Source: Elusimicrobiota bacterium (lineage in GTDB: Bacteria > Elusimicrobiota > Elusimicrobia > Elusimicrobiales > UBA9959). Taken from it: a stretch of 39,070 nucleotides of DNA. The position numbers and the translations under genes are program-made. This document shows positions 15,952 to 39,070 of the stretch, in pieces (position 1 is the first letter of the stretch; every line of letters begins with the position of its first letter). The stretch is taken from assembly GCA_016234365.1 (NCBI GenBank), contig JACRER010000010.1, positions 1-39,070 on the forward strand. The letters run 5' to 3'. The notes below the pieces were generated by a model. That model saw nothing but the letters and a program-made list of their open reading frames with translations, was not told the DNA's origin and searched no databases.

Positions 15952-15957
15952 TATAAT
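15952..15957 (+). promoter_or_regulatory. -10 box (TATAAT) of the giant fibre gene
   Basis: A perfect TATAAT ends 11 nt before the ATG at 15969. There is no SD sequence and almost no room for a leader. The gap upstream (15840-15951) also holds a 7-bp GC hairpin (15866-15872/15879-15885) without a T run. Confidence 0.55.
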
Positions 15958-15968
15958 CGGAAACGGGT

Positions 15969-21900: not shown

Positions 21901-22796
21901 ATTCCGCGGTGGCCGGCGGTTCCCAGAATACGGCCGGCAACCAGTATTCCGCCGTAGGCGGCGGCGTCGGGAATAACGCCGGCGGGGACAGCGCCACAGT
22001 GCCGGGCGGCGCCTCCAACGTGGCCAGCGGTTCCTATTCTTTCGCCGCGGGGCGTACCGCCACCGCGAGCGGAAACGGCGCTTTCCTGTGGGCCGATTCA
22101 GCGGGTGTGGCCGTGACCAATAACGTTGTCGACCTGGTCCGTTTTAAGGCCACAGGCGGTTTCCTGGTCTCCGGCTCTACCAGTTCTTACATGAACGGGC
22201 TGATTAACCGGGGGCTCATGGTCACCGGCGACGGCGCGGTGGGCATAGCTACCGGCACTCCCAAAGCGGCGCTGGACATAGTCTCCACCGGTACGGTGGC
22301 GGCTGTGTCGGCGCAAATCTGGCGCAACAGCGGCGGCACCATAGTCTCTTCCATGTCCTCCAACGGTATGTTCACCGCGGCCGGGGTGGCTTCCAACGGA
22401 CTGCTCTCTCTTCTGGAGGGCGGGGGCAGCCCTGTGTATAAGACCATTTTTCAGGGCGGGGACCAGGCCGCTGACATTACCTATACCTGGCCCTCCTCCC
22501 AGGCCACCGGCACACAGGTCTTGACCAATAACGGTTCCGGGGCGCTCTCCTGGACCACCGCCTCGCTGCCGTCCGGTTCCGACGGTGACACTTTGCGCTA
22601 TCAATCGGGGGCCTGGGTCTCCAACAATGTGATTTACAATAACGGGACCAATGTCGGCATAGGTACTTCCAGCCCTGGCGCCTATAAACTGGCAGTTTCC
22701 GATTCCGGCGGCAGCACCATGCAGATAGATACTTCCAACCCGGCCTACGTGAGCCTGCGTTCCAACGGCGTGGAAGTGGTCAGGTTGAAACCTTAG
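15969..22796 (+). CDS. Giant exported repeat fibre with YadA-head-like blocks (2275 aa)
   Basis: The signal peptide ends after ANA (residue 35). An N-terminal module of about 70 residues is shared with the gene at 14766. Blocks of short YadA-head-like repeats follow, of the type (A/S)xxGGGxxNxAxGxxS, at about 667-825, 1033-1274 and 1961-2039; a related GYxAGxxxxxG block lies at about 1428-1628. Three times a head block is followed by SFAAGR...GAF.WADS, then GGFL(V/I)TGST, then a module ALDIVSTGT...(I/L)WR...GV(I/V)V.SM. This last module occurs six times in all. Occasional 'GNVGIGT..P' repeats lie between. There is no C-terminal YadA-type beta-barrel anchor. A long beta-solenoid surface fibre or adhesin is likely. 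How it crosses or attaches to the outer membrane is not visible. Confidence 0.85.
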   Translation: MRSGGITLAERLFLALRGAIVVSAALFCFFGAANAQDQTELGSEDDISVLGIDGTVPDPDVEIKGFSVFGSTNVLTHISTAPGNVLINGALEVSSDVYVVGRSTFSGNVHSLGSISAVKFYGDGSSLTGLGGTLSGGQAPRLAYWTAATSLGNSNLSQDAAGMTVMGSSFTVQGGGYFNGHVNIAAGYNLTHQNTAVLRLSDNSNIVVNPPAASGKVFLNWDTGAGTIFGNGTGAGGEIARFLANGKFGIGTNVPAARLHVSSANALASDTVLLISSGTGTAQELVTVKGDGSVGIGTASPAAKLEVYNPSGGGDYTLANFSGAGNPLIALGNSRWLWDASNSYLSFGITGYGHQQFVMKADRTGIGTDTPAYKLQVSSGAGEAGTVMAVSTGSTNLFWVAGDGAHAIKFFGDGSGLTGLNTAGDSLGTHIATKTLDMAGYDIVDASSITVAADKPGLTVSTNLYVMNGNVGIGTSTPTYKLQVLGKFGVFQTGDDDQSGIVSTSQNGTSRAVRLWAGNDGTSRLESGLGGLGILVLNTGTGPVGIGNTLPLARLDVVSTGTANNIYAQVWRNGGGVVVASITSQGVLYATMPPGTGDNLGNHTATQNLNLAQFGIVNVSTISATGLYISSYGVIQTTGTGLGGVAVNPRGPGAVDLQTYRTATSQVASGDYSFIGSGRENTADADYAFIGAGYNNTVWAFGGVIGGGRNNSSVGMYSAVGGGYGNTAGQGAWGDTVGGGESNTAMGGASTIGGGYLNIINNYGESVIAGGSYNGISAGYAAIGGGTGNSVTGDYGVVPGGSYNTAKGAYSFAAGRGSSSTASGAFTWSDSNVWVETVNNVPNRTWFKNIGGFLVTGSTSTNMTGGLNRGMLVTGSGLVGISTGVPYAALDVVSSGTAQTQFAQIWRDASGVIVGSMSATGVMMAARFVGDGSGLINLPAGAGGDSLGTHVATQTLNMAAFPLINVSSLSMLGDGLRISTSVYAGASGLFISTSGAIFTTGFGNGTALPNARGIGAVDLQTKRNNSLQVSSGPYAAIGGGFNNTASGDGASVPGGWSNKAQGLRSFAVGNGNTASGAYSSVAGGSDNTASGDHAVVAGGNTNEAAGGHAAVLGGLYGAASGNYSVAAAGYENVAGGDYSSVLGGKTNTAAGGSSTVLGGEGNVAQGFGSLAGGYGYNYAGGDNSIVLAYLSTATAYDSTVIGGEEHIAGNSYATIVGGFMHRATGASSFIGGGDTSVASGAYSSVLGGRENTAKGNYSFAAGYKSSSTATGAFTWADSQGLAAENSVTDRTLFKNRGGFLITGSTNTNMTGAFNRGVLITGDGLVGISTGNPQAALDIVSTGTAADVYAQLWRNGSGVVVASMTSQGVLYATMPPGTGDNLGNHTATTQLEMGGYAIHSSSAMTAAYYQINGATIAAILPGTDNIAYGVSAGTSSDAGGTYNVFIGNYAGTSNTSGSDETLVGYKAGFSNKDSFGSVFVGSKAGYSQSSYAEYNTYVGYNAGYKGTGSQNTLIGGEAGYNTVRGDQNTFVGYDAGYSNATGQDNTYVGQEAGYYNKGSANVALGSLAGDGSAAANYSSSTLMGYNAGDKLTTGSDNILVGFQAGYNITTGTGNIVIGYNKDTSGAASSNELNIGGVLYGKLDAKTIGISRTSPMAALDIVSTGTAQTQFAQIWRDSNGVIVGSMSATGVLMATRVIGATGGGGDNLGDHTATNRLEMSNKAIDDVSSMTVTGSGVTGANALFKVAGSTFAVLNNGNVGIGTANPGAPLDIRSSNDSVSAAQIYNDNGNITYNLSQQADGDAYMQLIKEGAGHIVAIQLNTDGDSWLSGGNVGISTNAPQARLDVRASAATPDVMAQIWRDGNGVIVGSMSATGVLMATRVIGGASGGADDLGNHVAVSTLNMSGLGIFNVSTISASGIYISSYGVIQSTGIGLGTVAGNSRGTGAVDLQVNRGVAARVASGGYSVIAGGQDNTASGQNSAVAGGSQNTAGNQYSAVGGGVGNNAGGDSATVPGGASNVASGSYSFAAGRTATASGNGAFLWADSAGVAVTNNVVDLVRFKATGGFLVSGSTSSYMNGLINRGLMVTGDGAVGIATGTPKAALDIVSTGTVAAVSAQIWRNSGGTIVSSMSSNGMFTAAGVASNGLLSLLEGGGSPVYKTIFQGGDQAADITYTWPSSQATGTQVLTNNGSGALSWTTASLPSGSDGDTLRYQSGAWVSNNVIYNNGTNVGIGTSSPGAYKLAVSDSGGSTMQIDTSNPAYVSLRSNGVEVVRLKP
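21006..21060 (+). repeat. 55-nt perfect internal repeat, copy 1
   Basis: These 55 nt are identical to 21561-21615 and encode IVGSMSATGVLMATRVIG. The related segment near 18702-18745 is diverged, so this pair is recent or has been homogenised. Confidence 0.9.
21561..21615 (+). repeat. 55-nt perfect internal repeat, copy 2
   Basis: This is identical to 21006-21060, 555 nt upstream. Because 555 is divisible by three, recombination between the two copies would delete or duplicate 185 codons in frame. Confidence 0.9.
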
Positions 22797-22801
22797 GACG
22801 T

Positions 22802-25120
22802 ATGAACAATGGTACGGACCCACGTGGAGTAAAACTGCCGCCCTTGGCTGCGGCTTTTCTGCTGCTGGGCCAGCAGCTTCTGCCGCTGGTCCTCCCGTTC
22901 CTGCTGGGCCTGTTCCAGCCTTATACGCTCTTTGCCGCGGAAACCGAGGTAATGGACCGCCTGGTGGTCAACGGCACCGGCATCTTCAAAAGCACCTCCA
23001 CTTTTGAAAAGCAACTGGCCGTGGGGACCACGGTAATAACCTCTACTTTGACGGTACGCGGCGGAGTCTCGGTCAGTACCAGCGCCACCGCGAACGTGCT
23101 TTTTTTCGTTCACGCATCCAGCGGCGCGGTAGGCATAGCCACAATAGATCCCACCGAGCGGCTGGAGGTGAACGGCAACGTCAAAGCTTTGCGATTTTTT
23201 GGTGACGGTTCGGCGCTGACCAACACTCCCGGCGTGCCTATAGGCGCCATAGCGCTTTTTGACGGCGCCTGCCCCACCGACTGGACGGAACTGGCTGCCG
23301 CGCAGGGGCGCTACCTGGTAGGCAACCCTTCCGGCGGCGCCCTTTCCGGCACGCTCGGCACCGCCATGACCAACCTGGCCGACGCCTCATATACCCCGGC
23401 GGGCGCGGTGGCCGCGCCGGTCTTTACCGGCACGGGCGGCACCACCGGCAGTGAGTCCGCTCATACCCATGGCATGCAGTCACATACCCATACTACCGAC
23501 ATAGCGTCTTTTTCCAGCGGGGCCGAAGCCTCTCACACGCATGCGGTAGGCACGGGCCCCAGCGCCACCTGGTGTACCTCGCGGACCGCCGCGGCCTGCT
23601 CCGGGCAGGCCGATTATGGAAATGCCGGGAATACCTTCCAGGCTTCCGGCACCAGCGCGCATACCCACGGGAACACGTCCGCCGGCAGTTCGCATTCCCA
23701 CACCGTTGATCCGCCTGCCACGGCCAGCGGCGGTCCCAGCACCGCGAACACCGCTGCTGGTTCCGCGCATAGCCATTCCTTTACGCCTGCCGGGACCAAC
23801 ACTGCCCCGGCGTTCACGGGTACGGCGAATAACGCCATGCGCAGCAGCATCGCTCCCTACATTCAACTGAGACTTTGCAAAAAGACCTCCGGGCAGAGCG
23901 GCGTGCCCGGCAACGGCTGGGAGGACACCGGGCCTTACGTGGTGGCCAACGATATCTCGGATAATGTCGGCATTGGAACTGTAAGCCCGTTGAGCAAACT
24001 TACCATCGGCGGCGGCGCGCTGCAGATGAACGCCACCACCAGCCCCGGGAATTCGCCGGCCGCCACCGGCCGTATTTATTTCGACAGCGCGACCAATAAA
24101 TTCAAGGTGTCGGAGAACGGCATTAACTACGTGGACCTGGTGCAGGCCGGCATGATAACCGGCAGCGGTACTCCGGGCACCATCCCGAAGTTCGCCACCT
24201 CCAGTTCCCTGTCCGATTCCGTCCTTCTCGAGGCCTCCTCCGACATAGGCATAGGCAGGGCCCCTGGTTCCGTTGGCGCGGCCAAACTGGAACTTTACGG
24301 CACGGATTCGAACCTGGCTGGCCCCCACTTCCAAGCGGTTACCAGTCTGGATAATTATCCGGTGTTCCAGCAGCTCAACTGGACGCACGATAACATAGGG
24401 ATGTACTTCGACTCCTACTACGACGGCAGCCAGCGCAGTTCCGACGCCGGTTCCAATTTTCAGATATATAAGAACGGGGACTACTTCGGGATACGGTATG
24501 CCTCCGGCTATGCCCAGGGTTCGGCTATTATCTGGAGCAGCGGTCTGGCCATGGATTCTTCCGGTCGTGTAGGCATAGGGACAACCCCTGATACAACGGT
24601 GAAACTCCACGTGGCCGGCAAACTGCGCGTGGACCAGAGCACTGTTTCGGTCAACGGGACGGATATGTTCTTCATCCCGTCAGGGATCATAATGCTTTTC
24701 GACGGTTCCGCCTGCCCCTCCGGATGGACCGAGATAACCTCTGTGCGCAACCGCATCGCGCGCGGCTGGGACGGGGCCACTCCCGCCGGGGACGCCAATA
24801 TCGGCGGCTCCGACACGCATTCCCATACTACCGATGTGGCCTCGTTCACTACGGGCAGCGAGGCGGCGCACACTCACGCGGTCGGCACGGGCCCCAGCGC
24901 CACCTGGTGTACCTCGCGGACCGCCGCGGCCTGCTCCGGGCAGGCCGATTATGGAAATGCCGGAAATACCTTCCAGGCTTCCGGCACCAGCGCCCATACC
25001 CACGGCAACACGTCCGCCGGCAGTTCGCATTCCCATAGCGCGGACCCGCCAATTGCCACGAGTTCCACGAACAGCAACCTGCCCGCTTACAGGGCATTCC
25101 TCTTCTGCAAGAAGAACTGA
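22802..25120 (+). CDS. Exported collar-domain fibre protein, copy 1
   Basis: In this 772-residue protein, a long hydrophobic N-terminus probably acts as a signal peptide ending near LFAA (about 45). A 'FEKQLAVG ... SLTVRGGV'-type region and an ERLEVNGNVKA stretch follow. Two phage-collar-like modules start near residues 144 (PIGAIALFDGACPTDW) and 627 (IIMLFDGSACPSGW). Each is followed by a His-rich HTH/HSH region with a conserved WCTSRTAAACSG core. HxH motifs bind metal inside trimeric phage tail fibres such as T4 gp12; the same is plausible here. It starts 5 nt after the giant fibre gene and is paralogous over its whole length to the next gene. Confidence 0.82.
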   Translation: MNNGTDPRGVKLPPLAAAFLLLGQQLLPLVLPFLLGLFQPYTLFAAETEVMDRLVVNGTGIFKSTSTFEKQLAVGTTVITSTLTVRGGVSVSTSATANVLFFVHASSGAVGIATIDPTERLEVNGNVKALRFFGDGSALTNTPGVPIGAIALFDGACPTDWTELAAAQGRYLVGNPSGGALSGTLGTAMTNLADASYTPAGAVAAPVFTGTGGTTGSESAHTHGMQSHTHTTDIASFSSGAEASHTHAVGTGPSATWCTSRTAAACSGQADYGNAGNTFQASGTSAHTHGNTSAGSSHSHTVDPPATASGGPSTANTAAGSAHSHSFTPAGTNTAPAFTGTANNAMRSSIAPYIQLRLCKKTSGQSGVPGNGWEDTGPYVVANDISDNVGIGTVSPLSKLTIGGGALQMNATTSPGNSPAATGRIYFDSATNKFKVSENGINYVDLVQAGMITGSGTPGTIPKFATSSSLSDSVLLEASSDIGIGRAPGSVGAAKLELYGTDSNLAGPHFQAVTSLDNYPVFQQLNWTHDNIGMYFDSYYDGSQRSSDAGSNFQIYKNGDYFGIRYASGYAQGSAIIWSSGLAMDSSGRVGIGTTPDTTVKLHVAGKLRVDQSTVSVNGTDMFFIPSGIIMLFDGSACPSGWTEITSVRNRIARGWDGATPAGDANIGGSDTHSHTTDVASFTTGSEAAHTHAVGTGPSATWCTSRTAAACSGQADYGNAGNTFQASGTSAHTHGNTSAGSSHSHSADPPIATSSTNSNLPAYRAFLFCKKN
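23582..23670 (+). repeat. 89-bp repeat, copy 1 of 4
   Basis: This encodes the RTAAACSGQADYGNAGNTF core and the following residues up to HTHG. It differs from copies 2-4 at two synonymous positions. Within this gene the similarity to copy 2 extends over about 150 bp. Confidence 0.95.
24917..25005 (+). repeat. 89-bp repeat, copy 2 of 4
   Basis: This is identical over all 89 bp to copies 3 and 4, although the flanking sequence follows copy 1. Confidence 0.95.
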
Positions 25121-27422: not shown

Positions 27423-29711
27423 TCAGGGCAGCGCGAGCCCGCTGCCGTGTTCCAGGTTTTTCCTTACGAACGCTATGGCGTTTTTGGCGGGGGCATAGGT
27501 CGGATGGTTTTCCAGAAGATTGTAGAGGGTATTGTAGGCTTTTATGTCCTGTCCGTTTTCCCACAAGGTCCCGGCCAGGTGGAAATTTAATTCCGGGTCC
27601 CCAGGGTATATGCCAAGGGCTTTTTCAAAAGTCCCGAAAGAAGCTCCCCAATCATGCAGTCCGCGCTGCACCAGCGCCAGTTCCAGCAGCGTTTCATGGT
27701 TCGCGCTTATGGCAACGGCCCTGAGGGCGTACGGCAGGGCCCGCCTGTGACGGCCCGCCGTCCGCAGCGCCCCGCTCTGCGCCAGCCAGGCCTTGTACGA
27801 CCACGGCGAGCTTTCTCTGGCCATTTCCGCGTAGCGGAGGGCCTTCCTGTGCTCTCTAAGTTCCGTCCACGCCAGGGCCAGGTTTATCTGCGCCTCCGGA
27901 TCCGCCGCTGCCTTCTCCAGAAAAGTAACGGCCTCCGCCGGCCGGCCGTTCGCCAGGTGGACGTAGCCCAGGGCTTTGTTGGCAGGCAGGTAGGCGGGCT
28001 CCCTGGCAAGTACTTTCGATAATTCCGCCGCCGCAAGTTCCGGGAGGCCCGCCTCCTGGGCGGCCCTGGCGTAGGAGGTCGCGGCATCAAGGTCCATCAC
28101 CCCGGCCCTGGGGAGCCATGCGGCGAACTTGAAGTTCTTCATCGCTTCGCCGTACCTGCCCTGCATGAAATTGGCCGTTCCCAAACTCTTAGTAATGCCG
28201 CGCAAGTTATGCGCGGCTACCGGAGAGCGGAAAGCGGTAAAGAGCCGCCGCTTCGCCGTTGCGGGATCTCCCTCCGCCAGGTCCAGCGCCGCCATGTTTA
28301 TAAGAGCCGGCAGGTTGCGCGCGTCCACCTGGAGCGCCCGTTCCAGCAGCGTCCTTGCCTCCGCGCGCCTGCCCTTCCCCATTTCTATCACCGCGGAATT
28401 GGCCAGCGCCCGGAGGCAGCGCGGCTGCTGGCGCAGGGTCTTTGCCCATAAAGTTTCGGCGTCCTTCCAATCCGGTATGCGCGCGGCCGAGCGGGCGGCA
28501 AAGAGTGCCACCAAGACCGCGGATCCGGTCTTCACCGCGCGGCCTTGGCCGCCCTGAAACTCGCGGGCAAGTGAGGCCAGCAGCATGGCGAACCCGAAAA
28601 CAGGCAGATACAGCCAGTGTTCCGCGAAGACTTCGGAGTTGTGCAGGGAGGGGAACAAAGGCATGACGGGCAGGTAGGTGAGAACTATCCATGCCGCCGC
28701 GAACCCTGCCAGCGGAACCCGCCGCGCAGAGAACGCCGCGAGCGCCGCAAAGGCAAGCAGCCCGGCCGCGGGCAGCAGAAACGGCGCCGAGGCTGCGTTC
28801 CTGACAGGTTCTATGGCCAGATAAGAATAATCGGCGCAGAGGCTGATCGGCGCGGCCATAAGCGAAAGCGCTTTCCAGAAGATGGCCGGCAGCGTGAGAA
28901 GTTGAGTTACGGCGCTGCCGGAGTACCAGTAGGCTTCCGGCGGCGCATTCACCCTGGCGATGGTGGACTTAAAAAGCACCATTATTACAGATCCGGAGTA
29001 GGCGGCGGCGAAAAGCGTGGAGATCAGGAGAAAGACGGCGCCGCGCCCTTTCCAGGGCGCCCCGGGACGCTTGAACGTGGCGTAAGCGAGCAGGACCAGG
29101 GGCAGCGTTACCGCCGACTGCTTCGCCAGCAGGGAGAGCCCCCAGGCCGGCAGGCAGAGCAACAGGCTGCGGCGGTCGCCATTATCCAGGTACTTCATGC
29201 CGGACAGGAAAGAAAGCAGGAAAAAAAGCCCATAGAGCAGGTCGCGGCGGCCCGCCAGGTAAACCACGGATTCTGTCTGCGCCGGGTGAAGCGCAAAGAC
29301 CAGCGCCCCGCCAAAAGCCCAGCCCACCGTTCCAAGGAGCCGGTGTAGGACCAAAAAGGCCGCCAACACAACCAGGAAGTGCAGGCAGAGGTTGATGAGG
29401 TGCCCGCCCCAGGGGTCATTGCCGAATAAGAGACGGTCCGCCTGTGTCGAAAGATCACGCAGGTGTCTGGCGGTAAGCAATATTTCCGCGCCTGCCAGGA
29501 GATTATAGGAGAATCTTTCCTTGATTAATTGCACCGGGTTTTCGGCCGCCAGTGGCCGGGCAATGGGGTTGGCATCCTCGTCGTCGAACATGACTCGCCC
29601 GTTGGAAAGGGAACCATAGTACACCGAGAAGACCGCTATGAAAAGAGCCGCCGCGCAATGCCAGAACCTGAGTTTCGGAAAGAATGGCGTCGAGGTGATT
29701 GTTTTCGGCAT
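27423..29711 (-). CDS. TMTC-like GT-C glycosyltransferase with C-terminal TPRs
   Basis: In this 762-residue membrane protein, the N-terminal half has about ten transmembrane helices. An acidic FDDED motif (Asp42, Asp43) lies in the first extracytoplasmic loop and an HPAQTESVVYLAGRRDLL block near 140-158. Both are typical of TMTC-type protein O-mannosyltransferases and related GT-C enzymes, which use lipid-linked sugars. The C-terminal half (about 400-760) is a series of TPR-like helical repeats. It could glycosylate exported proteins or build a surface glycan. It is convergent with the fibre locus (24-nt gap) and lies downstream of the flippase and GT4 genes, with a TATAAT box 14 nt before its ATG. 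Confidence 0.72.
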   Translation of the reverse strand: MPKTITSTPFFPKLRFWHCAAALFIAVFSVYYGSLSNGRVMFDDEDANPIARPLAAENPVQLIKERFSYNLLAGAEILLTARHLRDLSTQADRLLFGNDPWGGHLINLCLHFLVVLAAFLVLHRLLGTVGWAFGGALVFALHPAQTESVVYLAGRRDLLYGLFFLLSFLSGMKYLDNGDRRSLLLCLPAWGLSLLAKQSAVTLPLVLLAYATFKRPGAPWKGRGAVFLLISTLFAAAYSGSVIMVLFKSTIARVNAPPEAYWYSGSAVTQLLTLPAIFWKALSLMAAPISLCADYSYLAIEPVRNAASAPFLLPAAGLLAFAALAAFSARRVPLAGFAAAWIVLTYLPVMPLFPSLHNSEVFAEHWLYLPVFGFAMLLASLAREFQGGQGRAVKTGSAVLVALFAARSAARIPDWKDAETLWAKTLRQQPRCLRALANSAVIEMGKGRRAEARTLLERALQVDARNLPALINMAALDLAEGDPATAKRRLFTAFRSPVAAHNLRGITKSLGTANFMQGRYGEAMKNFKFAAWLPRAGVMDLDAATSYARAAQEAGLPELAAAELSKVLAREPAYLPANKALGYVHLANGRPAEAVTFLEKAAADPEAQINLALAWTELREHRKALRYAEMARESSPWSYKAWLAQSGALRTAGRHRRALPYALRAVAISANHETLLELALVQRGLHDWGASFGTFEKALGIYPGDPELNFHLAGTLWENGQDIKAYNTLYNLLENHPTYAPAKNAIAFVRKNLEHGSGLALP

Positions 29712-29742: not shown

Positions 29743-31089
29743 TCAGCGGATCGGCAGCGGGGGGGTAATATCCGGTACGTCTTGCGGTGAGAATACCGAT
29801 CCGCCCGCCGGGCGGTGGCGGTATAGCGTCAGCGTCATGAGGCAGAACGCGGCGAAGGACTTGAGCGTCCACGCCAGCGCTGCTCCTGTGGTCCCATAAA
29901 GCGAAACCAGGGGAAAGCAGGCGGCCGCGAAGGCGCCTGTAAGCAGTCCTTGCAGCAGGGCTACGCGCTTGTGCCGGTCCAGGCTCTGAAGAGCGGCAAC
30001 CGGTACAAAAGCCAGGCTCTGGAAGACGCCGCCGAGAGCCAGGATGCGCAGCAGGGGGGCCGTGGCGGAAAGACTTTCCCCGGCCCAGGCTGATATGAGC
30101 TGCGGCGCAAAGACGCCGGCAGTTCCGTAAAGAGTCCCGGAGACGAAGAAGGTGTATGCGAACACCCGCCGTATCTGCGCGCGGAGGATATTTTTATCGG
30201 TAGAAACAGCCGCTTGGGCGAAGAGGGGGAACGCGGCAAGAGTCACCCCCGACGGTACCGCGGAAACGGCTTTTACTATCTTCTTAGGCAAAGAATAGGC
30301 CCCTACGGCGGCCAGCGGGGTCAGCGCCGCCAGCACAACGGTTTCAAGTTCGTCCCCGAGTATGAGGAAGAATCTGTATGTCACGGAAGCCGCGCCGAAC
30401 CCGGTCATTTCCCGGATCAGGGGAATAACCGGGCGCTGAAATGATAACAGCCCGGGCGCGGCCTTAAAAGCCGCGGCCAGGGCCGCTGAGAACACGGCCG
30501 CTTCGCAAAGCGAGAGGAGTAGCAGGACTTCAGCCAGGCCCTGGCCCGTCTTGGCGCAGGCAAGCGCCGACAAAAGGAAAGCGGATTCCGAAGAGCCCCT
30601 GATCAGCGCCGAGGCCGCGAAGTCATGACGTGCCTCGAAAAAAGCCCCCACGGCATTGGCCAGCATGTACAGCAGGATAAAGAACGGGAAGAATTTTATG
30701 GCCGCGGCGAATTCCGCCGCCAGGGAGGCTGGCACCACAGGCGCCGCAAGCGTCGGCAGCAGTGCCGCGCTGAGAATGGCCGCCGCCGCGGCTGCCGCGC
30801 CCTGCAGCAGCAGACCGGCCCTGGCGAAGTCGAGGGTTTTGTGCGGCGGACCCTCCATGGTCCCTGCCGCAGTGTTCTTTACAAGAGATCTTGTGAAGCC
30901 AAGCAGCGGCACGGCAAGCCAGCGTACCGCTACCCAGAAAAGCGAAAGGGCGCCGAAACGCTCTAAACCCAGTCCGGAGATGGTGGCCGGTACGGTGAAT
31001 ACCGCCAGGCAGAGCGGCAGCCCGATGCCCAGGGCCGCGTAAACTGAATTCCTGCCGAGCCGCTGCTGCGCCGCGGCTATGGCGGGCAT
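29743..31089 (-). CDS. Wzx/MATE-like oligosaccharide flippase
   Basis: This protein has about 448 residues and 12-14 hydrophobic segments along its length, with the alternating helix pattern of the polysaccharide flippase (MVF/MOP) superfamily. It would move lipid-linked oligosaccharides across the inner membrane. I chose the start at 31089 (MPAIAAAQQRLG) over the upstream in-frame ATG at 31164 because it overlaps the stop of the GT4 gene by one base (TGATG), giving translational coupling. Its position between GT4 and the TMTC-like transferase supports a glycan-export role. Confidence 0.85.
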   Translation of the reverse strand: MPAIAAAQQRLGRNSVYAALGIGLPLCLAVFTVPATISGLGLERFGALSLFWVAVRWLAVPLLGFTRSLVKNTAAGTMEGPPHKTLDFARAGLLLQGAAAAAAAILSAALLPTLAAPVVPASLAAEFAAAIKFFPFFILLYMLANAVGAFFEARHDFAASALIRGSSESAFLLSALACAKTGQGLAEVLLLLSLCEAAVFSAALAAAFKAAPGLLSFQRPVIPLIREMTGFGAASVTYRFFLILGDELETVVLAALTPLAAVGAYSLPKKIVKAVSAVPSGVTLAAFPLFAQAAVSTDKNILRAQIRRVFAYTFFVSGTLYGTAGVFAPQLISAWAGESLSATAPLLRILALGGVFQSLAFVPVAALQSLDRHKRVALLQGLLTGAFAAACFPLVSLYGTTGAALAWTLKSFAAFCLMTLTLYRHRPAGGSVFSPQDVPDITPPLPIR

Positions 31090-32183
31090 CAGGCCTGCCT
31101 CCCCGCCAGGAGTTCGCCGTAAAGAGCGCTGTAGGCCGCGGCAGTGGCATCGGGCGAAGGCCATCGGGCCGCCACGCTCAGCGCAGTTTCAGCCCTGGCT
31201 GCGGCGCCTTCCCTGTCGGTTACGGCCGCTTTCAGCGCCCGGGCTATTGAGGAGGGGGACGCTCCGTCGCAGAGCAAAGCGGTGGTCTCGTCGAGTATCT
31301 CGCGGTGTTCGGCCATATCCGAGACCACCAGCGGGCAGCCTGCCGCCATGGCTTCAAGCACCGAATTAGGACAACCTTCGAAGTTGCTGACGGAAACAAA
31401 AGCGTCTGCGCCGGCGGACAGGAGCCAGGGCTTCCTGATTTCGGGCAGCAGCTTTACTTTCCCGGCCAGGCGCTTCGCATCTACAAGGTCCTTCACCATG
31501 GCCCTTTCCGGCCCGTCGCCGCACATCACCAGGGTGTGCCTCCAGTCAGGGTCCGCGCAGAGCAGTTGCGCGGCGGCCATCAGGTTGTTGATGTTCTTTT
31601 GCGGCTGATTGAAGCGCCCGGCGTAAAGCACGTACGGGCCCGGCACCGGGCGTTCCCCCGCCAGCCGGCAGTCCTGCCGGATCTGGGCGAAAGGCAGGGC
31701 GTTGCGGATCATCTCGCGCCGCACCCGCGGGGCGTGGCGGGCCCAGTAGGCGGCGCCGGAGGCTGAATTGGAGACTATGGCCGAAGCTTTTCCCGCGGCC
31801 GAGGTCCTGAGCCAGGTATTCGGGGCCCTGGGGTTCCAGCGCGCGGCGCTGTTAGGTTCCCGGAGTATCCAGGGGACTCCGGCGGCGGCCGCGGCGGGCC
31901 CCGCTAGAAAGTCCATCTTCCTGAACCAGGTCTGCGCCACGTCGGGCTTGACCCGGGCCAGAAGGCGCAGGATCTGCAGCACTATCCGCGGGTCGAACCC
32001 GTTCAGGCTCTTTATGTGGTGGAGAGTGACGCCCTGTGCGGACATCCCGTCCTCAAAGAAACCTCCCCGGATGTACGCGACATGAACCTCGTGGCCGCGC
32101 CGCGCGAGGGCGCAAGCCAGATAGGAGAGCTGCCGTTCCATTCCGCCGCACGACAAGGTGGTAGTAAAGTGCAGTATGCGCAT
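31089..32183 (-). CDS. Glycosyltransferase family 4
   Basis: This 364-residue cytoplasmic GT-B fold enzyme retains its stereochemistry and would transfer a nucleotide-activated sugar. The N-terminus has the GT4 start (MRILHFTTTLSCGGMERQL, with the GG loop). The C-terminal donor-binding domain has LYAGRF, MCGDGPER and the EX7E motif in FEGCPNSVLEAMAAGCP, then LVVSDMAEHREIL. It is coupled to the flippase by a one-base overlap and divergent from the radical SAM array, sharing a 108-bp intergenic region with it. The sugar and acceptor are unknown. Confidence 0.92.
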   Translation of the reverse strand: MRILHFTTTLSCGGMERQLSYLACALARRGHEVHVAYIRGGFFEDGMSAQGVTLHHIKSLNGFDPRIVLQILRLLARVKPDVAQTWFRKMDFLAGPAAAAAGVPWILREPNSAARWNPRAPNTWLRTSAAGKASAIVSNSASGAAYWARHAPRVRREMIRNALPFAQIRQDCRLAGERPVPGPYVLYAGRFNQPQKNINNLMAAAQLLCADPDWRHTLVMCGDGPERAMVKDLVDAKRLAGKVKLLPEIRKPWLLSAGADAFVSVSNFEGCPNSVLEAMAAGCPLVVSDMAEHREILDETTALLCDGASPSSIARALKAAVTDREGAAARAETALSVAARWPSPDATAAAYSALYGELLAGRQA

Positions 32184-32202
32184 TATGGGGAGTCCGCGAA
32201 TA

Positions 32203-32219
32203 TTCTATAATTCTATAAT
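32203..32219. promoter_or_regulatory. Divergent promoter with overlapping -10 boxes on both strands
   Basis: A tandem 8-bp repeat (TTCTATAA twice) creates two TATAAT boxes on the plus strand (32206-32211 and 32214-32219) and two TAGAAT boxes on the minus strand (32203-32208 and 32210-32215). The minus boxes are 20-27 nt before the GT4 ATG. The plus boxes are about 75 nt before the first radical SAM gene, whose leader can fold through CGCTTC (32235-32240) and GAAGCG (32271-32276). Opposing polymerases would compete here. Confidence 0.55.
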
Positions 32220-32291
32220 AATATGGCCAGGAGACGCTTCAGCCCCGGTCCTGGGCCCCGGACGGCCAGCGAAGCGCGGGGCCACGCTTAA

Positions 32292-33332
32292 ATGATAAGA
32301 ATCCCCACCACCCATTTAAGGATCGATTCCTGTTCCCGGTGCCAGCTGGAATGCGGATCCTGCCCGCGTAACGGCCCCGACGGGGTTTATGCCCCCGGTG
32401 AGGGCTTGCTTTCAGTCGCCGCTTTCGAAAAATTCTTGAGTTCCGCTGGCGGCACCCTGCGTTCCGTCGAGATAGCGAGCCAGGGGGAGATCTTCCTCAA
32501 TCCGGAACTGCCGGGCCTGCTCTCCGCAGCCGCGGCCGCCGGGGTGGCGGTGTCGGCCGACACTGGGGTAAATTTGAACAACGCCTCTCCGGAGGCGCTC
32601 GAGGCCCTGGTCAGGTTCGGCGTGCGCCGGCTGCGCGTCTCCGTAGACGGCGCCACTCAGGAAGTCTATGCCGCTTACCGCGCGGGAGGGGACCTGGCCG
32701 TGGTACTGGAGAATGTCCGCAGGATAAATTCCCTGAAGCGGCGTTACCGGAGCCGGTACCCCAAACTCAAGTGGCAGTTCCTGGCTTTCGGCCATAACGA
32801 ACATGAACTCGGGGCAGCCCGGCAGCTAGCCCTCGGTCTTGGGATGAGCTTTGAGGTTAAGTTGCCGCGCGAACCTTCCTGCTCTCCGGTACGCGATGCC
32901 GCGAAGTTCAGCAAGGACAGCGGTTTGCCCTACTCCTCCAGGAAGGAATTCCTCCTGAAATATGGTTTTGATTACGCCAGGGCGACCTGTTACCAGCTAT
33001 GGCTGGCCCCCCAACTCAACTGGGACGGGAGGATACTGGGCTGCTCCTGGAATCATTGGGGGGAGTTCGGCGGAAACGCGCTCTCTGACGGACTTGGCGC
33101 CCTGGCTGCCTCTGAAACCCTGGCCTATGCCCGTAAGATGCTGATGGGTGGCGTACCGCCCAGGCCCGATATCCCCTGCTCCTCCTGCGCGCTTTACCGG
33201 ACGCTGCGGGAAACCGGGCGGTGGATAACCGGCTGGGAACTTCATCCGGCCCGACTGGCCCTTTCCAGGCTGGCTGGCAACCTTCTGTTGGGGAGCGGCC
33301 TGGTTTCTCAATGGGACAGGCGGTTCTACTGA
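32292..33332 (+). CDS. Radical SAM protein with SPASM-like C-terminus (array member 1)
   Basis: This 346-residue protein has the radical SAM CxxxCxxC motif at Cys17, Cys21 and Cys24, which binds a 4Fe-4S cluster and S-adenosylmethionine. An ASQGEIFLNPEL segment stands where GGEP is expected, and a VSVDG strand follows. The C-terminus has C233-x12-G-x4-C251 and a CxxC pair (296, 299), a SPASM-like set for an auxiliary cluster. It lacks the N-terminal extension and the LWPG segment of the next five proteins, so it is a different subfamily. No SD precedes the ATG. Its stop overlaps the next start by one base (TGATG). The substrate is unknown. Confidence 0.88.
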   Translation: MIRIPTTHLRIDSCSRCQLECGSCPRNGPDGVYAPGEGLLSVAAFEKFLSSAGGTLRSVEIASQGEIFLNPELPGLLSAAAAAGVAVSADTGVNLNNASPEALEALVRFGVRRLRVSVDGATQEVYAAYRAGGDLAVVLENVRRINSLKRRYRSRYPKLKWQFLAFGHNEHELGAARQLALGLGMSFEVKLPREPSCSPVRDAAKFSKDSGLPYSSRKEFLLKYGFDYARATCYQLWLAPQLNWDGRILGCSWNHWGEFGGNALSDGLGALAASETLAYARKMLMGGVPPRPDIPCSSCALYRTLRETGRWITGWELHPARLALSRLAGNLLLGSGLVSQWDRRFY

Positions 33333-34393
33333 TGGGGCTCTCCTCTAAGATCGCGTTGGCTTCCCGGCTGGCGGCTTACAACGTCTGTTCCGCGGCTACG
33401 CGATTCTCGGGCAGCGTGTGGCATAAACCCAAGCGGATTTTTTTTGAGACTTCGCGCACCTGCGGCCTTCGGTGTTCCCAGTGCGACAGGTGGGGAGCGC
33501 AGCCGCGCCCAGCGGTATCCGGCCTCGCCGGCGATGACTGGCTTCGCCTGCTGAGCGATACCCGCGCCTGGCTGGGACAGTTCTTCCTGTATTTTCACTC
33601 CGCGGAACCATTCGCCGACGAGGATTCGCTGCGGGTGGTGGAGGAGGCCGGACGGCTGGGGGTTTACACCGCCTGCACCACCAACGGGACGATGCTTGAC
33701 CGGGAAAAAATAGCGAGGCTGTGCGCCGCCGGCCTCCGTCGCCTGAGTTTCTCCTTTGACAGCATGCAGGCGGCCGTTCATGACCGCAACAGGGGAGTTC
33801 CCGGGACCTATGAGAAGGCCCTTTCCTCCCTGCGCACGGCGGCGGCCATGCCTTCCCGGCCGCTTCTCCAGGTCGCGACGATAGTGACGGAACTTAACTG
33901 GCGTGAACTCCTCCGGATGCCTGCCTGGGCGCTTTCCAACGGCGCGGACGAAGTGAATTTTCAACCGCTCCAGCCCAGGAGCGAGGCCTGCTCCGGGCTT
34001 TGGCCTGCGGACCAGGCCGGTGTGCTGCGGCAGTTGGACGCGCTCCTGGAATTGCGCCTGCGCGGCCGCGGGGTGGCGAATAGCCCGGAATACCTGGGGG
34101 CGGTCCGAAATTATTACGCCGGAGACAGGCGCCCTCCGGGTGGGACCTGCGCCAGGTCGCACTCCCTTATAGTGGAGAAGAACGGGGACGTCCTGCTGTG
34201 CCCGTACATGCCCCCGGTGGGCAACGTCAGGCAAGCCGGACTCGCCGAGATCTGGAGTTCCCCGCAGGCGGCGGAGGCTATGCGGCGTATTCATGCCTGC
34301 AGGGACATATGCCGGGTCTACGCCTGCCATTTCACCCCCGGTTTCACGGAGAGGTTGCGGTCCTTTTTGCCTCTTGTCGGGAGGAAGGAGTGA
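33332..34393 (+). CDS. Radical SAM paralogue A (array member 2)
   Basis: This 353-residue protein has an amphipathic or hydrophobic N-terminal extension of about 30 residues ending HKPKRIFFE. The CxxxCxxC motif is at 44, 48 and 51, SAEP replaces GGEP, and TTNGT and FSFDS strands follow. A shared mid-C-terminal segment reads FQPLQ...LWPAD...NS...L....YY. The C-terminal ligand set is C273-x11-G-x4-C290 and C323-x3-C327-x4-C332, resembling a twitch or shortened SPASM auxiliary-cluster site. The start is set by TGATG overlap with the previous stop. The next gene overlaps by 4 nt. Confidence 0.88.
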   Translation: MGLSSKIALASRLAAYNVCSAATRFSGSVWHKPKRIFFETSRTCGLRCSQCDRWGAQPRPAVSGLAGDDWLRLLSDTRAWLGQFFLYFHSAEPFADEDSLRVVEEAGRLGVYTACTTNGTMLDREKIARLCAAGLRRLSFSFDSMQAAVHDRNRGVPGTYEKALSSLRTAAAMPSRPLLQVATIVTELNWRELLRMPAWALSNGADEVNFQPLQPRSEACSGLWPADQAGVLRQLDALLELRLRGRGVANSPEYLGAVRNYYAGDRRPPGGTCARSHSLIVEKNGDVLLCPYMPPVGNVRQAGLAEIWSSPQAAEAMRRIHACRDICRVYACHFTPGFTERLRSFLPLVGRKE

Positions 34394-35448
34394 ACCGCTC
34401 CGCCATGCTGAAATGGGCTTTTCGCCTGGCCAGGCGCAGGGCCGGCGCTTTCACTGGGCTTTCCGGCCGTTTCCCGCCCCCGAAAAGGGTGGTGTTCGAG
34501 ATCAGCGACCGCTGCAACCTGCGCTGCTCGCACTGCGGTTTCTGGCGGCTGCCTCCTGAACCTTCCTCACCTTCTACGTCCGACTGGGTTTCCCTGCTTC
34601 GTCCGCTGAATGCCTGGCTGGGGCCGTTCTCCCTGAGTTTTAAGAGGGGGGAGCCTTTGCTTGAACCGTCCCTTGACCCGATCATAAGGGAAGCCTCAAG
34701 CCTGGGGATAGCTACTTCCGTTACCACTAACGCGATGCTGCTGGACGCCGAGCGGGCCGGCCGCCTGGCCGCGGCCGGGCTTTCCACGATACGGCTTTCC
34801 CTCGACAGCCTCTCCCGCGATGTGCACGATTCCGGGCGCGGGAGGCGCGGCTGTTACGACAAGGTCATGCGCGCGCTGGAACTTTTGGCGGGGTTACCGA
34901 TGTCCGTGAGCATTATATCCGTGATCACGAGCCGCAATTTGCGGGAGCTTGCGGCTTTGACCGGTTTCGTCTCGTCCCGGAAATTGGCATCGGTGGTATT
35001 TAACCCGCTGCAGCGGGCTCAGGGAGCGGACCTGGAAGGGCTTTGGCCGGGCAGTGAGGCCGGGGCTGCGCTGGATGAGCTTATCGCCATGAAAAAAGCG
35101 GGTGCTCCCGTGGAAAATAGCGTTTCCCACCTGGAATTGATGAAGGACTATTTCAGCGGCCGCCTGGCTTCCCGCCAGTTCCCCGCCTGCGCCGCGGGCC
35201 GCCAGTTCACTGTGCTCAAGAACGGGGATATACAACTCTGTCCGCATATGCAGGCTATCGGGAATATAAAAAGGATTTCTGCTCGTTCGGCCTGGGGTTC
35301 TCCCGCCGGATCTGCTGTGCTGGGGGCCATAGCGGGCTGCCGGAAGGACTGCAGGGCCTACTCCTGTAATTTCGACGCAGGGGCGTACGAGGGGTTGCGG
35401 CTGTTCGCAAAAAAGTTCCTGGCCCCGGCTGTGTGGGGTCGGCAATGA
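34390..35448 (+). CDS. Radical SAM paralogue B (array member 3)
   Basis: This 352-residue protein begins at GTG 34390 in a GTGA overlap with the previous stop; an ATG five codons on is an alternative. The N-terminal extension ends PPKRVVFE. The CxxxCxxC motif is at 42, 46 and 49, and the GGEP position reads RGEP. LSLDS follows, then a LWPGSEAG...ENS...YF segment. The C-terminal set is complete: C267-x11-G-x4-C284 and C317-x3-C321-x4-C326. It overlaps the next gene by ATGA. Its close similarity to the neighbours indicates tandem duplication followed by divergence. Confidence 0.88.
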   Translation: MNRSAMLKWAFRLARRRAGAFTGLSGRFPPPKRVVFEISDRCNLRCSHCGFWRLPPEPSSPSTSDWVSLLRPLNAWLGPFSLSFKRGEPLLEPSLDPIIREASSLGIATSVTTNAMLLDAERAGRLAAAGLSTIRLSLDSLSRDVHDSGRGRRGCYDKVMRALELLAGLPMSVSIISVITSRNLRELAALTGFVSSRKLASVVFNPLQRAQGADLEGLWPGSEAGAALDELIAMKKAGAPVENSVSHLELMKDYFSGRLASRQFPACAAGRQFTVLKNGDIQLCPHMQAIGNIKRISARSAWGSPAGSAVLGAIAGCRKDCRAYSCNFDAGAYEGLRLFAKKFLAPAVWGRQ

Positions 35449-36497
35449 AACCTTCCCGTCTGGCGTTCTCTTTTTCCTATTCGCTGCAGCAGGCGTTTTC
35501 AGGGCTTTCCGAACTGACAGGGCTTACCCTCCATAAGCCCTCCCGGGTGATCTTCGAGAACAGTTCCGTCTGCAACCTCAGGTGCGGTTACTGCGATTTC
35601 TGGCGTGACCAGGTCCCCGGCGGGGCCTTGTCCACGGGGGAGTGGATCTCCCTGCTGGAACGGATAAGGGCCTGGGCTCCGGGTTTTGTGCTGGGGCTCG
35701 GTTACGCCGAGCCTTTCGCGGAGGCCTCCACCCTGCCTATACTCAGGGCCGCCAAACGGCTCGGCGTACCGGCGGTCTGTTCGACCAACGGCACGCTCGT
35801 GGATCACGCTAAAGCCGTTGAGATCTGCGCCGCCGGACTGAATAATATTTATGTTTCACTGGATTCCCTGCGCCCCGAAGTCCACGACGGGCTGCGCGGG
35901 GTGCCTGGGACACAGGCCAAGGCGCTGCTGGCAATTCGCCACCTGCTGTCAAATCGTTCCCGCCCCGCGGTGTATGCCACGGCCGTAATAACGGCCGCTA
36001 ACCTGGAGGAACTGCCCGCCCTCGCCGCCTGGGCGGCCGACGCCGGGCTGGACGGGATTTCCTTTCAGGCCATGATGCGCAGGGGTAGCGCGAAAGACGC
36101 CTTGTGGCCGGGAGCGAAGGCCTGCGCGGCTATCGACCGGCTGATGGCCGCCAAACGGGCGGGGGCGCCGGTCCGCAACAGTATGGCGCAGCTGAAAAAT
36201 TTTAAGTGTTACTATTCCGGCCTTCCTCCGGCCGGCGCCGGCGCGGCTTGCGCGGCCTTCCGGATGCTGAAAATAAAAAGGAACGGTGAGGTCCGTTTTT
36301 GCGTCCCAATGGGCGGGATAGGCAACGCGATGCGAGCTGACCTGCCCCGGCTGTGGCGTTCAGAAGCCGCGGACGCTGTCAGGCGGGGCATCAGAAGGTG
36401 CTCGAATTCAGGCTGCAGGCTCCTGAATTGTCACGCGACGTCCTCCCTGGGGACCCGGGCGAAGGACGCCGTAAATTTCTTAAGGGGCCGCCGGTGA
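35445..36497 (+). CDS. Radical SAM paralogue C (array member 4)
   Basis: This 350-residue protein has an N-terminal extension rich in Phe, Ser and Leu ending LHKPSRVIFE. The CxxxCxxC motif is at 43, 47 and 50, and YAEP stands at the GGEP position. STNGT and VSLDS follow, and then LWPGAKA...RNS...YY. The C-terminal ligands are C269-x11-G-x4-C286 and C319-x4-C324-x4-C329, one residue wider between the first two of the last three cysteines than in paralogues A and B. Start ATG 35445 overlaps the previous stop by 4 nt, and the stop overlaps the next GTG by 4 nt. Confidence 0.88.
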   Translation: MKPSRLAFSFSYSLQQAFSGLSELTGLTLHKPSRVIFENSSVCNLRCGYCDFWRDQVPGGALSTGEWISLLERIRAWAPGFVLGLGYAEPFAEASTLPILRAAKRLGVPAVCSTNGTLVDHAKAVEICAAGLNNIYVSLDSLRPEVHDGLRGVPGTQAKALLAIRHLLSNRSRPAVYATAVITAANLEELPALAAWAADAGLDGISFQAMMRRGSAKDALWPGAKACAAIDRLMAAKRAGAPVRNSMAQLKNFKCYYSGLPPAGAGAACAAFRMLKIKRNGEVRFCVPMGGIGNAMRADLPRLWRSEAADAVRRGIRRCSNSGCRLLNCHATSSLGTRAKDAVNFLRGRR

Positions 36498-37501
36498 ACA
36501 TGCTGAAGTGGCCGGTCCTGGCCGGGAACAGGCTGCGCGCGGCCTTGCCATTCCTGCCGTTGCGCAAGCGCTACCGGCCGAAGATCCTCGACCTTGAGAT
36601 CTCCAGCCGCTGCAACTTTTCCTGCCTCCACTGCCGGCGGGGCGGGTCTCGACCGCGGCGGCCTTCCGCCCCGCTGGCCTCTTCTCAATGGGAGGCCGTC
36701 CTGGAAGATGCCGCGCGCTGGCTGGGTTATTTTTCGGTTAACCTTCATTCCGGAGAGCCTCTGCTGGAAAGGGAGCGCATGCTGGCCGTGCTCTCCAAAT
36801 GTGCCGGGTCCGATATCCCGGTGTCTTTTACCACCAACGGCTGGCTGCTGGATAGCAAAGCCGCCGCTTCCTTTGCCGGCTACGGGAACCTGACCGTACG
36901 CTTTTCTGTGGACAGCCTGGTCCCGGCGACCCACGATCGCCTTCGCGGCACCCACGGGGCTTTCGGGCGGGTGATGGAGGCCATTACCGTGATGAGGCGC
37001 CTGGCGCCCTTGGTGAAAATTTCTATTTCCAGCGTCGTAACGGCCCTCAATTGCGCGGAACTTCCGGCTATTGCCCGGCGGGCGGTTTCCGAAGGCATGG
37101 CGGGTGTTATCTTTCAGCCGCTGCAATTCAAGAACGCCGCCTGCCGCTCGGAACTTTGGCCGGGCAGGCTGCCGGCGCTGTTCGCCTCGTTAACGGAGCT
37201 CAAGGCCATGAGGCGCGCTTACGGCGGAGTTTTGAATTCTCCCGCCCAACTCGACGCCATGGCGGCTTATTACACGGACCCAGGCACACAGCAGCCCGCG
37301 GGCGCCTGCCTGTACTCGCGCACGCTTAGAATTTCCGAGGGAGGGGAGGTGCGCCTTTGTCAGTACATGGCTCCCTGCGGCAATGTGAAGGCCACCTGCC
37401 TCAGGGAAATATGGAACTCGGCTGAGGCCGGGAGCCGCTTGGAAGCGATTTTGGCATGCAAGAAGGCGTGTAAAGTCTATTCCGGGAGGTTCCCGGCATG
37501 A
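36494..37501 (+). CDS. Radical SAM paralogue D, missing the last C-terminal cysteine (array member 5)
   Basis: This 335-residue protein is the shortest of the array. The start is GTG 36494 in a GTGA overlap, with ATG 36500 as an alternative. The N-terminal extension ends RYRPKILDLE, the CxxxCxxC motif is at 40, 44 and 47, SGEP is near the GGEP position, and TTNGW and FSVDS strands follow. The LWPG...NS...YY segment is kept. The C-terminus has C272-x11-G-x4-C289 and C322-x3-C326, but the final Cys of paralogues A-C is replaced (VYSG), and the protein ends about nine residues later. It may hold a different auxiliary cluster or none. Confidence 0.87.
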   Translation: MNMLKWPVLAGNRLRAALPFLPLRKRYRPKILDLEISSRCNFSCLHCRRGGSRPRRPSAPLASSQWEAVLEDAARWLGYFSVNLHSGEPLLERERMLAVLSKCAGSDIPVSFTTNGWLLDSKAAASFAGYGNLTVRFSVDSLVPATHDRLRGTHGAFGRVMEAITVMRRLAPLVKISISSVVTALNCAELPAIARRAVSEGMAGVIFQPLQFKNAACRSELWPGRLPALFASLTELKAMRRAYGGVLNSPAQLDAMAAYYTDPGTQQPAGACLYSRTLRISEGGEVRLCQYMAPCGNVKATCLREIWNSAEAGSRLEAILACKKACKVYSGRFPA

Positions 37502-38580
37502 ACAGGCGCTGGCGCGGAATGCGCCTGGCGGCGAATTTTTCGCTGCAGGCGGGATTAAGGAGACTCTCCGCGGTTTCCGGGGCTTTGCTGCATAAACCTA
37601 CCAGGCTCCGTCTGGAAATAACCAGGGACTGCAACCTGAAATGCGGATATTGCGACGTGTGGCGGGGCGCGGGCGCAGGCGCCCTGCCCCTTGGGACATG
37701 GCTCGCCTTGCTCCGCGAAGCGGCCGGCTGGCTGGGACCGGTAGGACTGTCCTTCGGTTCCGGTGAGCCGCTTACCGCGCCGGACCTGCTTTTCCCGCTG
37801 ATCGCGGAAGGCTCGCGCCTCGGCTTCCTCACGACTTGCGTCTCCAACGGAACCCTGATAGATGAGAAAACCGCCGACGGACTTTGCGCCTCCGGATTAG
37901 GGAGGCTCCTGATCTCCCTGGACGCTCCGGACGCCGCCACTCACGACGCCATCCGCGGGCGGGCCGGAACTTTCGCGCTGGCGTTGGCCGGGCTGCGCCG
38001 TGTGATGAGCCGCGGCGTCCGCCCTGACGTCGGGCTGCTGACCGTGGTTACCGCGGCCAACGCGGGAAAGCTCCCGGCGATGCTGGAACTGGCCGCCGCC
38101 GAAGGCGTGGGGGGGGTTACGCTGCAGCCTCTCAGTTCCCACAAGCCGTGTACCCCGGGTCTCAGGGCGGTCGCGCAAAAAGATCTCCGCCGTTCATTCG
38201 ATAAACTGCGTGAAATGAAGGCCGCAGGTTATCCTCTTACCAACAGCCTGGGATCCCTGCGGCTCATCTCTGATTTCTACCTGGGGATGCCTTATAAGGC
38301 CCCGGCCCTGTCCCTGTGCGGGAGTTTTTCCACGCTCCGTGTCGCATGCGACGGCGAGGTGCGGGCCTGCGCACACAAGCCGCCGTTGGGACGTGTCTCT
38401 GACGCCCCGCTGCGCGCCATCTGGGCGGCCGGATGGGGCTCCGGGATCCTCCGGCGTGTTTCCGGCTGCCGGGCTTACTGCATGCTCAACAATACCGACC
38501 TCTCCCGGCCCGCCGGGGAGAGGCTGCGGGAGTTCCTGCGTCATTTCCGCGCGGCAGCCGGCGGGGGTGACGCGCAATGA
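37498..38580 (+). CDS. Radical SAM paralogue E, missing the last C-terminal cysteine (array member 6)
   Basis: This 360-residue protein starts at ATG 37498 in an ATGA overlap. The N-terminal extension ends LHKPTRLRLE, the CxxxCxxC motif is at 45, 49 and 52, SGEP is at the GGEP position, and SNGT and ISLDA follow. The LWPG motif is lost (GLRAV), but the NS...L....YL part remains. The C-terminal set is C274-x11-G-x4-C291 and C324-x3-C328; the third cysteine is absent (YCMLNN). An extra Cys284 lies inside the x11 spacer. It is the most divergent of the five paralogues. It overlaps the GT2 gene by 4 nt. Confidence 0.87.
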   Translation: MNRRWRGMRLAANFSLQAGLRRLSAVSGALLHKPTRLRLEITRDCNLKCGYCDVWRGAGAGALPLGTWLALLREAAGWLGPVGLSFGSGEPLTAPDLLFPLIAEGSRLGFLTTCVSNGTLIDEKTADGLCASGLGRLLISLDAPDAATHDAIRGRAGTFALALAGLRRVMSRGVRPDVGLLTVVTAANAGKLPAMLELAAAEGVGGVTLQPLSSHKPCTPGLRAVAQKDLRRSFDKLREMKAAGYPLTNSLGSLRLISDFYLGMPYKAPALSLCGSFSTLRVACDGEVRACAHKPPLGRVSDAPLRAIWAAGWGSGILRRVSGCRAYCMLNNTDLSRPAGERLREFLRHFRAAAGGGDAQ

Positions 38581-39070
38581 CGCTGGCCGCTGCGGTGATA
38601 AACCGTGACGGGCTTCGTTATCTGCCCGGCTGCCTCGCCGCGCTCGCGGCCACTCCCGTTCCTTTCGGCCGGCTGATATTTGTGGACGACGCTTCCTGCG
38701 ACGGCAGCGCAGACTGGGTGGAACGCAACTATCCTGATGTCCGTGTGATACGGCTGCCGCGCCGGGAGGGCGCCGCGGCGGCGCGTAACGCCGCCATAGC
38801 GGCCGCCGGCGGCGGTCTGTTGCTGCTGCTGGATTGCGACGCCTCGATCTCAGGAGGCTGCGTGCAGGAACTGCGCAAAGAACTGACGGCGCACGGGGCG
38901 GTCCTCGCTTTGCCGCGAGTCCTGCTGCCGTCCGGGGTTTCCCAGCACGGCGGGGGACGCATGCATTTTCTGGGCTTTACGATCTTCGACGAGGCATGGG
39001 GCGCCGCCCCCGCCGCCGGCGGCGGGCCTCGTTGTGCCTGCGGCGCCACGGCGCTCCTGCTCGACCTGGA
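38577..39070 (+). CDS. Glycosyltransferase family 2, cut by the window end
   Basis: The frame is open from ATG 38577 (ATGA overlap with the previous stop) to the end of the window, giving at least 164 residues. The GT-A fold signs are clear: AAVINRDGLRYLPGCLAAL at the start, VDDASCDGSADWV (nucleotide-sugar-binding Asp pair) and LLDCDAS (the DxD motif that holds the metal and sugar nucleotide). It then runs through a CGATALLLDL stretch, as in rhamnosyl-type GT2 enzymes. It shows that the radical SAM array belongs to a glycan-building operon that continues to the right. The sugar is not predictable. Confidence 0.9.
   Translation, partial: MTLAAAVINRDGLRYLPGCLAALAATPVPFGRLIFVDDASCDGSADWVERNYPDVRVIRLPRREGAAAARNAAIAAAGGGLLLLLDCDASISGGCVQELRKELTAHGAVLALPRVLLPSGVSQHGGGRMHFLGFTIFDEAWGAAPAAGGGPRCACGATALLLDL

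Follow-up and report, generated by a model that had tools for sequence, protein, structure and literature searches.

What would six consecutive radical S-adenosylmethionine (SAM) genes do inside a glycan locus of an Elusimicrobiota bacterium? The stretch of DNA analysed here (the window) is one whole contig, JACRER010000010.1, 39,070 bp long and part of a 2.72-Mb draft genome (GCA_016234365.1), and in it we confirmed six intact radical SAM genes on the + strand, R0 at 32292-33332 and R1-R5 at 33332-38580. We put at about even the chance that R0-R5 tailor the sugars of a surface glycan from within an accessory glycan-biosynthesis island. Glycan or glycolipid tailoring, which an earlier note on this DNA had also preferred, emerges as the likeliest reading because R1-R5 form an array of paralogues, appear translationally coupled, lie in a glycan locus and come with no visible precursor gene; a sugar or glycan substrate is favoured by the glycan-gene neighbours, by a glycosyltransferase-radical SAM fusion in a related genome, by the locus of an R0 orthologue and by similarity to the sugar-acting enzyme BlsE.

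Gene order and junctions at the contig end

32292-33332, + strand: R0, sixth radical SAM gene, distinct from the other five; 346 aa with CSRCQLECGSC, and with Cx17C and CxxC towards the C-terminus, PF04055 E 1.6e-6
33332-34393, + strand: R1, radical SAM/SPASM-like paralogue; 353 aa, PF04055 9.9e-15, PF13186 2.2e-8
34390-35448, + strand: R2 paralogue; 352 aa, starting with GTG behind a GGAGG, PF04055 8.9e-20
35445-36497, + strand: R3 paralogue; 350 aa, PF04055 8.2e-17
36494-37501, + strand: R4 paralogue; 335 aa, Gly in place of the last C-terminal Cys and a short C-terminus, PF04055 9.3e-15
37498-38580, + strand: R5 paralogue; 360 aa, another residue in place of the last C-terminal Cys, PF04055 4e-20
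38577-39070, + strand: GT2 glycosyltransferase, 5' part only (contig end); PF00535 1.4e-19
32184-32291, no strand: divergent promoter region of 108 bp between both operons, assigned from the sequence
31089-32183, - strand: GT4 glycosyltransferase of the divergent operon; PF00534 2.2e-24
29743-31089, - strand: Wzx-like polysaccharide flippase, likely ATG at 31089; PF13440 2.1e-6
27423-29711, - strand: TMTC-like protein with a GT-C/PMT_2 membrane part and TPR repeats; PF13231 1.1e-5 and TPR families

As read from the DNA, R0 and R1 meet in a TGATG with a 1-nt overlap at 33332, whilst all later junctions are 4-nt overlaps: GTGA at 34390 (R1/R2), ATGA at 35445 (R2/R3), GTGA at 36494 (R3/R4), ATGA at 37498 (R4/R5) and ATGA at 38577 (R5/GT2). 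These overlaps make translational coupling across R0-R5 and GT2 likely and leave no space for an intervening gene, in agreement with the earlier note, which had described ATGA/GTGA joints throughout the five-gene run and no room for a precursor peptide between the genes. Its description of a glycan locus, with a GT2 gene after the array and a divergent GT4/flippase/TMTC-like operon before it, is likewise borne out by Pfam. Since the window is a whole contig, the operon and GT2 are cut off on the right side; no precursor peptide or RRE gene was found in the visible operon, whose right side ends at the contig edge.

One old family and a separate sixth protein

Between any two of R1-R5, identity is 29-39% in alignments of about 300-350 aa (E values from 1e-33 to 1e-68 in BLASTP), and blastn found no DNA similarity for any pair of the six radical SAM genes. 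Pairwise homology is overwhelming at the protein level, placing the run of paralogues beyond chance, and with such divergent proteins and no blastn match the array is neither a recent duplication nor an assembly artefact; judged from this divergence, R1-R5 are an old family expansion. They diverged long ago, probably within one lineage, and one site is consistent with diversification of this kind, reading SxDG in most relatives, SxDS in R1-R4 and SxDA in R5.

All five paralogues have a cationic N-terminal extension (a helix, residues 3-26 in R1), a CxxxCxxC core, and a C-terminal Cx11Gx4C followed by Cx3-4C. Invariant are both cysteine motifs and the core triad, an NS and W308; the earlier note had counted LWPG among the shared motifs as well, and here it went too far, as R1 has LWPA and R5 LRAV. 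An additional C-terminal cysteine a few residues past Cx3-4C, present in most relatives, is kept in R1-R3 and lost in R4 and R5. Compared with eight relatives, each of R1-R5 keeps 35-39 of 45 family-conserved columns, the cluster cysteines included, so that all five look active. A membrane-binding amphipathic N-terminus was considered and rejected, the hydrophobic moment in R1-R5 being no higher than in shuffled sequences.

R1-R5 show the radical SAM superfamily motif and score 55-73 bits against PF04055, whilst R0 scores 28.8 bits, just below the 29.5 cut-off, in the protein scan and 30.6, above it, in the genome scan. The AlphaFold2 model of R1 (pLDDT 85) has a partial TIM-barrel fold that matches BlsE, SuiB and SkfB; the model of R0 is moderate only (pLDDT 70). 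Of the seven-cysteine SPASM pattern (Cx9-15Gx4C, Cx2Cx5Cx3C and a final C) R1-R5 have only the first half, the second being reduced to Cx3-4Cx4C in R1-R3 and to Cx3C in R4 and R5, and PF13186 is above cut-off in R1 alone. We read the C-terminal domain as a putative reduced SPASM or, the better label, twitch-like domain that would ligate one auxiliary cluster.

None of R0-R5 belongs to an NCBIfam family, the best scores lying below 100 bits against cut-offs of 170-650, and the family and profile searches, which took in relatives as well, found no described family with a known substrate for R1-R5, a case that the earlier note had held against itself. The PqqE and mycofactocin MftC-type radical SAM/SPASM proteins resemble R1-R5 in length and domain order, and PqqE alignments cover most of the protein; however, R1-R5 reach at most 68 bits against TIGR02109 (PqqE, cut-off 381; R1 67) and TIGR03962 (MftC, cut-off 265), and the visible locus has no peptide substrate or PqqD/RRE partner. 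Among solved proteins BlsE (7vob; TIGR04466) comes nearest, in the profile search (E 6e-25) as well as in the fold comparison (E 3e-16, TM 0.67/0.72); it is a cytosylglucuronate decarboxylase, a radical SAM enzyme whose substrate is a sugar and which probably has two clusters (PMC3715490). BlsE and R1-R5 differ in that identity is about 20%, R1-R5 score at most about 50 bits against TIGR04466 (curated cut-off 400), and CxCxxC is the motif proposed for the second cluster of BlsE, where the R family has Cx11Gx4C with Cx3-4C.

R0 matches R1-R5 in the radical SAM core alone, at about 25% identity (E 1e-7 to >1), and is, with its own C-terminal cysteines, a separate radical SAM family by sequence; the picture of five tandem paralogues behind a different sixth gene thus stands. 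Its strong relatives occur in four genomes only, as orthologues in G189 (46%), G186 (43%), G169 (40%) and G305 (36%), and no R0 relative was found among phage sequences. In G186 the R0 orthologue and an R homologue are convergent and some 100 bp apart, which links both families independently. The R0 orthologue of G189 sits with genes for asparagine synthase, a sulfotransferase, a methyltransferase and a DegT/DnrJ aminotransferase (by Pfam), and with flippase-like and GDP-mannose dehydratase-like genes (by inspection).

Relatives, parallels and the accessory island

The R1-R5 profile was searched in 59 genomes from the family and in 341 from the phylum. Its own genome aside, only 5 of 340 phylum genomes, all from other families of the class (G163, 1; G186, 2; G228, 2; G230, 1; G231, 1), gave matches above 200 bits, as did an Omnitrophota contig (L056); relatives in the 31 congeners score about 135 bits at most. 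Outside its own genome no tandem array of strong relatives was found, there being one or two per genome, unlinked. The earlier note had raised the prospect that relatives carry single unlinked copies and that the array is an assembly duplication: the former is much as observed, the latter is not. In a tree of 29 proteins, R1-R5 and the proteins of G186, G228, G230 and G231 form a clade of 11 rows (support 100/99), within which the six non-window proteins form their own clade (95/93) and R1-R5 group together weakly (83/52). With most relatives beyond a supported branch in a clade of their own, the array positions have no orthologues elsewhere, and the one-to-one correspondence of the five positions across genomes that the note had proposed to look for was rejected. 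The viral contigs searched held two distant relatives only, and the matches listed in a plasmid search with R1 were TIGR04053/PqqE-like and other distant radical SAM proteins only.

That such a run is unusual, as had been claimed, must be qualified. On a 36-kb plasmid of Brachyspira hyodysenteriae, five radical SAM genes in a row and one more (BHWA1_02674-02678, 02682) lie among glycosyltransferase and dTDP-rhamnose genes (PMC4267127), at a strain-variable locus without assigned function (PMC4267127; PMC2650404). The likeness noted is one of gene arrangement, and Brachyspira was not among the leading genera listed in the plasmid search; its locus lies on a low-GC spirochaete plasmid and has nucleotide-sugar genes, whereas the present array consists of overlapping genes, its five shown to be of a single family, with a GT2 fusion in a relative. 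A run of this length within a glycan locus has therefore already been published, and the present array is a new form of this arrangement; apart from Brachyspira, the literature searched yielded no tandem radical SAM genes in polysaccharide loci.

Clusters rich in radical SAM genes are frequent in this lineage. One that is larger and stranger than the present array lies on another contig of this genome (G000:C68:6061-63473), with 26 PF04055 matches in about 57 kb, its radical SAM genes interleaved with pairs encoding U32-like and LGSEFCENKLP-type proteins. A conserved pair of a U32 protein and a 230-270 aa GDExCERRLP protein was also seen near radical SAM genes at L056:6791-8666, L097:3505-5186 and L099:4435-6275, and at L096:8180-8872, a contig end, only the second partner, the GDExCERRLP protein, was seen. 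A nitrogenase-paralogue radical SAM locus has reportedly been published for groundwater Elusimicrobia; with no PF00148 match in the genome, it is not a relevant parallel here.

The locus from 27.4 to 39 kb is, by comparison of its genes and composition, an accessory island. Up to about 25 kb the contig is conserved: 23 of the 31 congeners have a relative of the ABC permease at 5751-7415, for the most part with 77-86% identity, and G013 and G014 preserve the gene order at about 4-20 kb as far as the large surface-protein genes. The flippase at 29743, by contrast, has a homologue in none of the 31, and GC content at third codon positions (GC3) is 0.72-0.79 from 27.4 kb onward against a mean of 0.82 for 121 open reading frames (ORFs) from other parts of the genome (Mann-Whitney P 2e-6); surface genes adjoining the island are equally low in GC3. 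Taken together, the conserved left side, the missing flippase and the atypical GC3 indicate that the array probably entered with, or evolved inside, a variable surface locus. At 12939-25117 the window encodes large secreted proteins of up to 2275 aa with no Pfam match, syntenic and length-variable in congeners, and in G013 a 5586-aa ORF follows at the matching place. A serine recombinase gene (289-1797, GC3 0.69) lies at the left contig end.

Sugars, peptides or other substrates

Linkage to glycan genes extends beyond the GT2, GT4, flippase and TMTC-like genes of the window. In G228 a single ORF of 642 aa (L093:6635-8560) joins a GT2 (PF00535, 29-142) to an R-family radical SAM protein (PF04055, 343-499); a GT2-PF00884 ORF precedes it and a PMT_2 gene flanks the second R homologue. 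GT2 genes stand within a few kb on both sides of the R homologue of G163, a GT4-like gene (by inspection) directly precedes that of the Omnitrophota contig, and a protein similar to the TMTC-like one is encoded near that of G231. Two proteins at the G228 locus, the GT2 fused to a PF00884 sulfatase-like domain (L093:3675-6701) and one with a double PF00884 (9271-12024), have Thr at the usual formylglycine position.

Several observations weigh against a glycan substrate. The relatives in G230, G231 and L056 adjoin U32-type and/or GDExCERRLP proteins, and those of G230 and G231 stand with class III aminotransferase and sulfatase-like genes, not with a glycosyltransferase. The resemblance to BlsE is distant, with the peptide-modifying SuiB and SkfB and an anaerobic sulfatase-maturing enzyme (anSME) close behind in the fold list; the operon ends at the contig edge, and the visible part of the window has no nucleotide-sugar gene.

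SPASM-type enzymes act mostly on peptides, and among the NCBIfam neighbours of R1-R5 are GeoRSP, PqqE and sactipeptide maturases. With SuiB and SkfB next in the fold list and large surface proteins encoded just upstream (12.9-25 kb), R0-R5 could instead modify those proteins or the precursor of a ribosomally synthesised and post-translationally modified peptide, in the manner of SPASM peptide maturases. We regard this as unlikely: the overlaps leave no gap for a precursor ORF, the N-terminal extension is modelled as a single helix and not as an RRE-type domain, congeners without R genes have conserved the surface-protein genes, and relatives are linked or fused to glycosyltransferases. Tailoring of a lipid, a quinone-like or another small molecule together with U32-type (UbiU/UbiV-like) enzymes would account for the U32 and GDExCERRLP genes near R-family or R-like genes in L056 and G230 (the partner only in G231) and for the content of the L056 cluster, which by inspection includes a methyltransferase, an ATP-grasp and two B12-type radical SAM genes. 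It seems quite unlikely here, however, as the window has no U32 gene and neither G228 nor G186, whose relatives share the same well-supported clade, shows the linkage.

Formylglycine maturation of the PF00884 proteins encoded near R homologues in G228, G230 and G231 is suggested by those neighbours and by the similar fold of anSME, but it is a very improbable role, since these proteins read W-T-x-P at the nucleophile site and not C/S-x-P-x-R, the window has no PF00884 gene (the genome has only two, on other contigs), and R1-R5 are without the seven-cysteine SPASM domain; anSME was accordingly rejected as an assignment. That the array is an artefact of assembly or binning is barely credible: it lies on a single draft contig of a metagenome-assembled genome, its GC3 is below that of the core, and the island ends where the contig does, yet the copies have no DNA similarity, frames and motifs are intact, and most congeners have syntenic orthologues of core genes that lie on this same contig.

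The analysis demonstrates the gene structure, the homology, the intactness of the cofactor motifs, the status as an island and the linkage to glycosyltransferases; for the favoured role in sugar tailoring we infer the substrate, reaction type, division of labour and export route as follows. R0 and R1-R5 would each bind SAM at one [4Fe-4S] cluster, to which R1-R5 would add a twitch/SPASM-like domain for an auxiliary cluster handling electrons or substrate. Each protein would cleave SAM reductively at its CxxxCxxC cluster and then take hydrogen from a sugar carbon of a nucleotide- or lipid-linked sugar or of the growing glycan, and the epimerised, deoxygenated, oxidised or decarboxylated sugars may be added or extended by GT2. 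The Wzx-like flippase would export the glycan, which the TMTC-like GT-C protein or others may attach to a surface acceptor. Given their ancient divergence, the paralogues probably differ in the site or the sugar on which they act. A more specific scheme, in which R0-R5 form a radical line and each paralogue edits its own position or residue within a single lipid-linked glycan before hand-over to GT2, is unlikely; if true, an anaerobe would set the stereochemistry or deoxy pattern of its sugars after assembly and not at the nucleotide-sugar stage.

Radical SAM enzymes are frequent in the surface-glycan loci of uncultured anaerobes, and few have an assigned substrate. The array suggests an enzyme set that edits the sugars of a surface glycan, and five diverged, coupled paralogues beside a glycosyltransferase, together with a natural GT2-radical SAM fusion, make a compact system for testing radical editing of glycans, a question that applies equally to the published Brachyspira locus.

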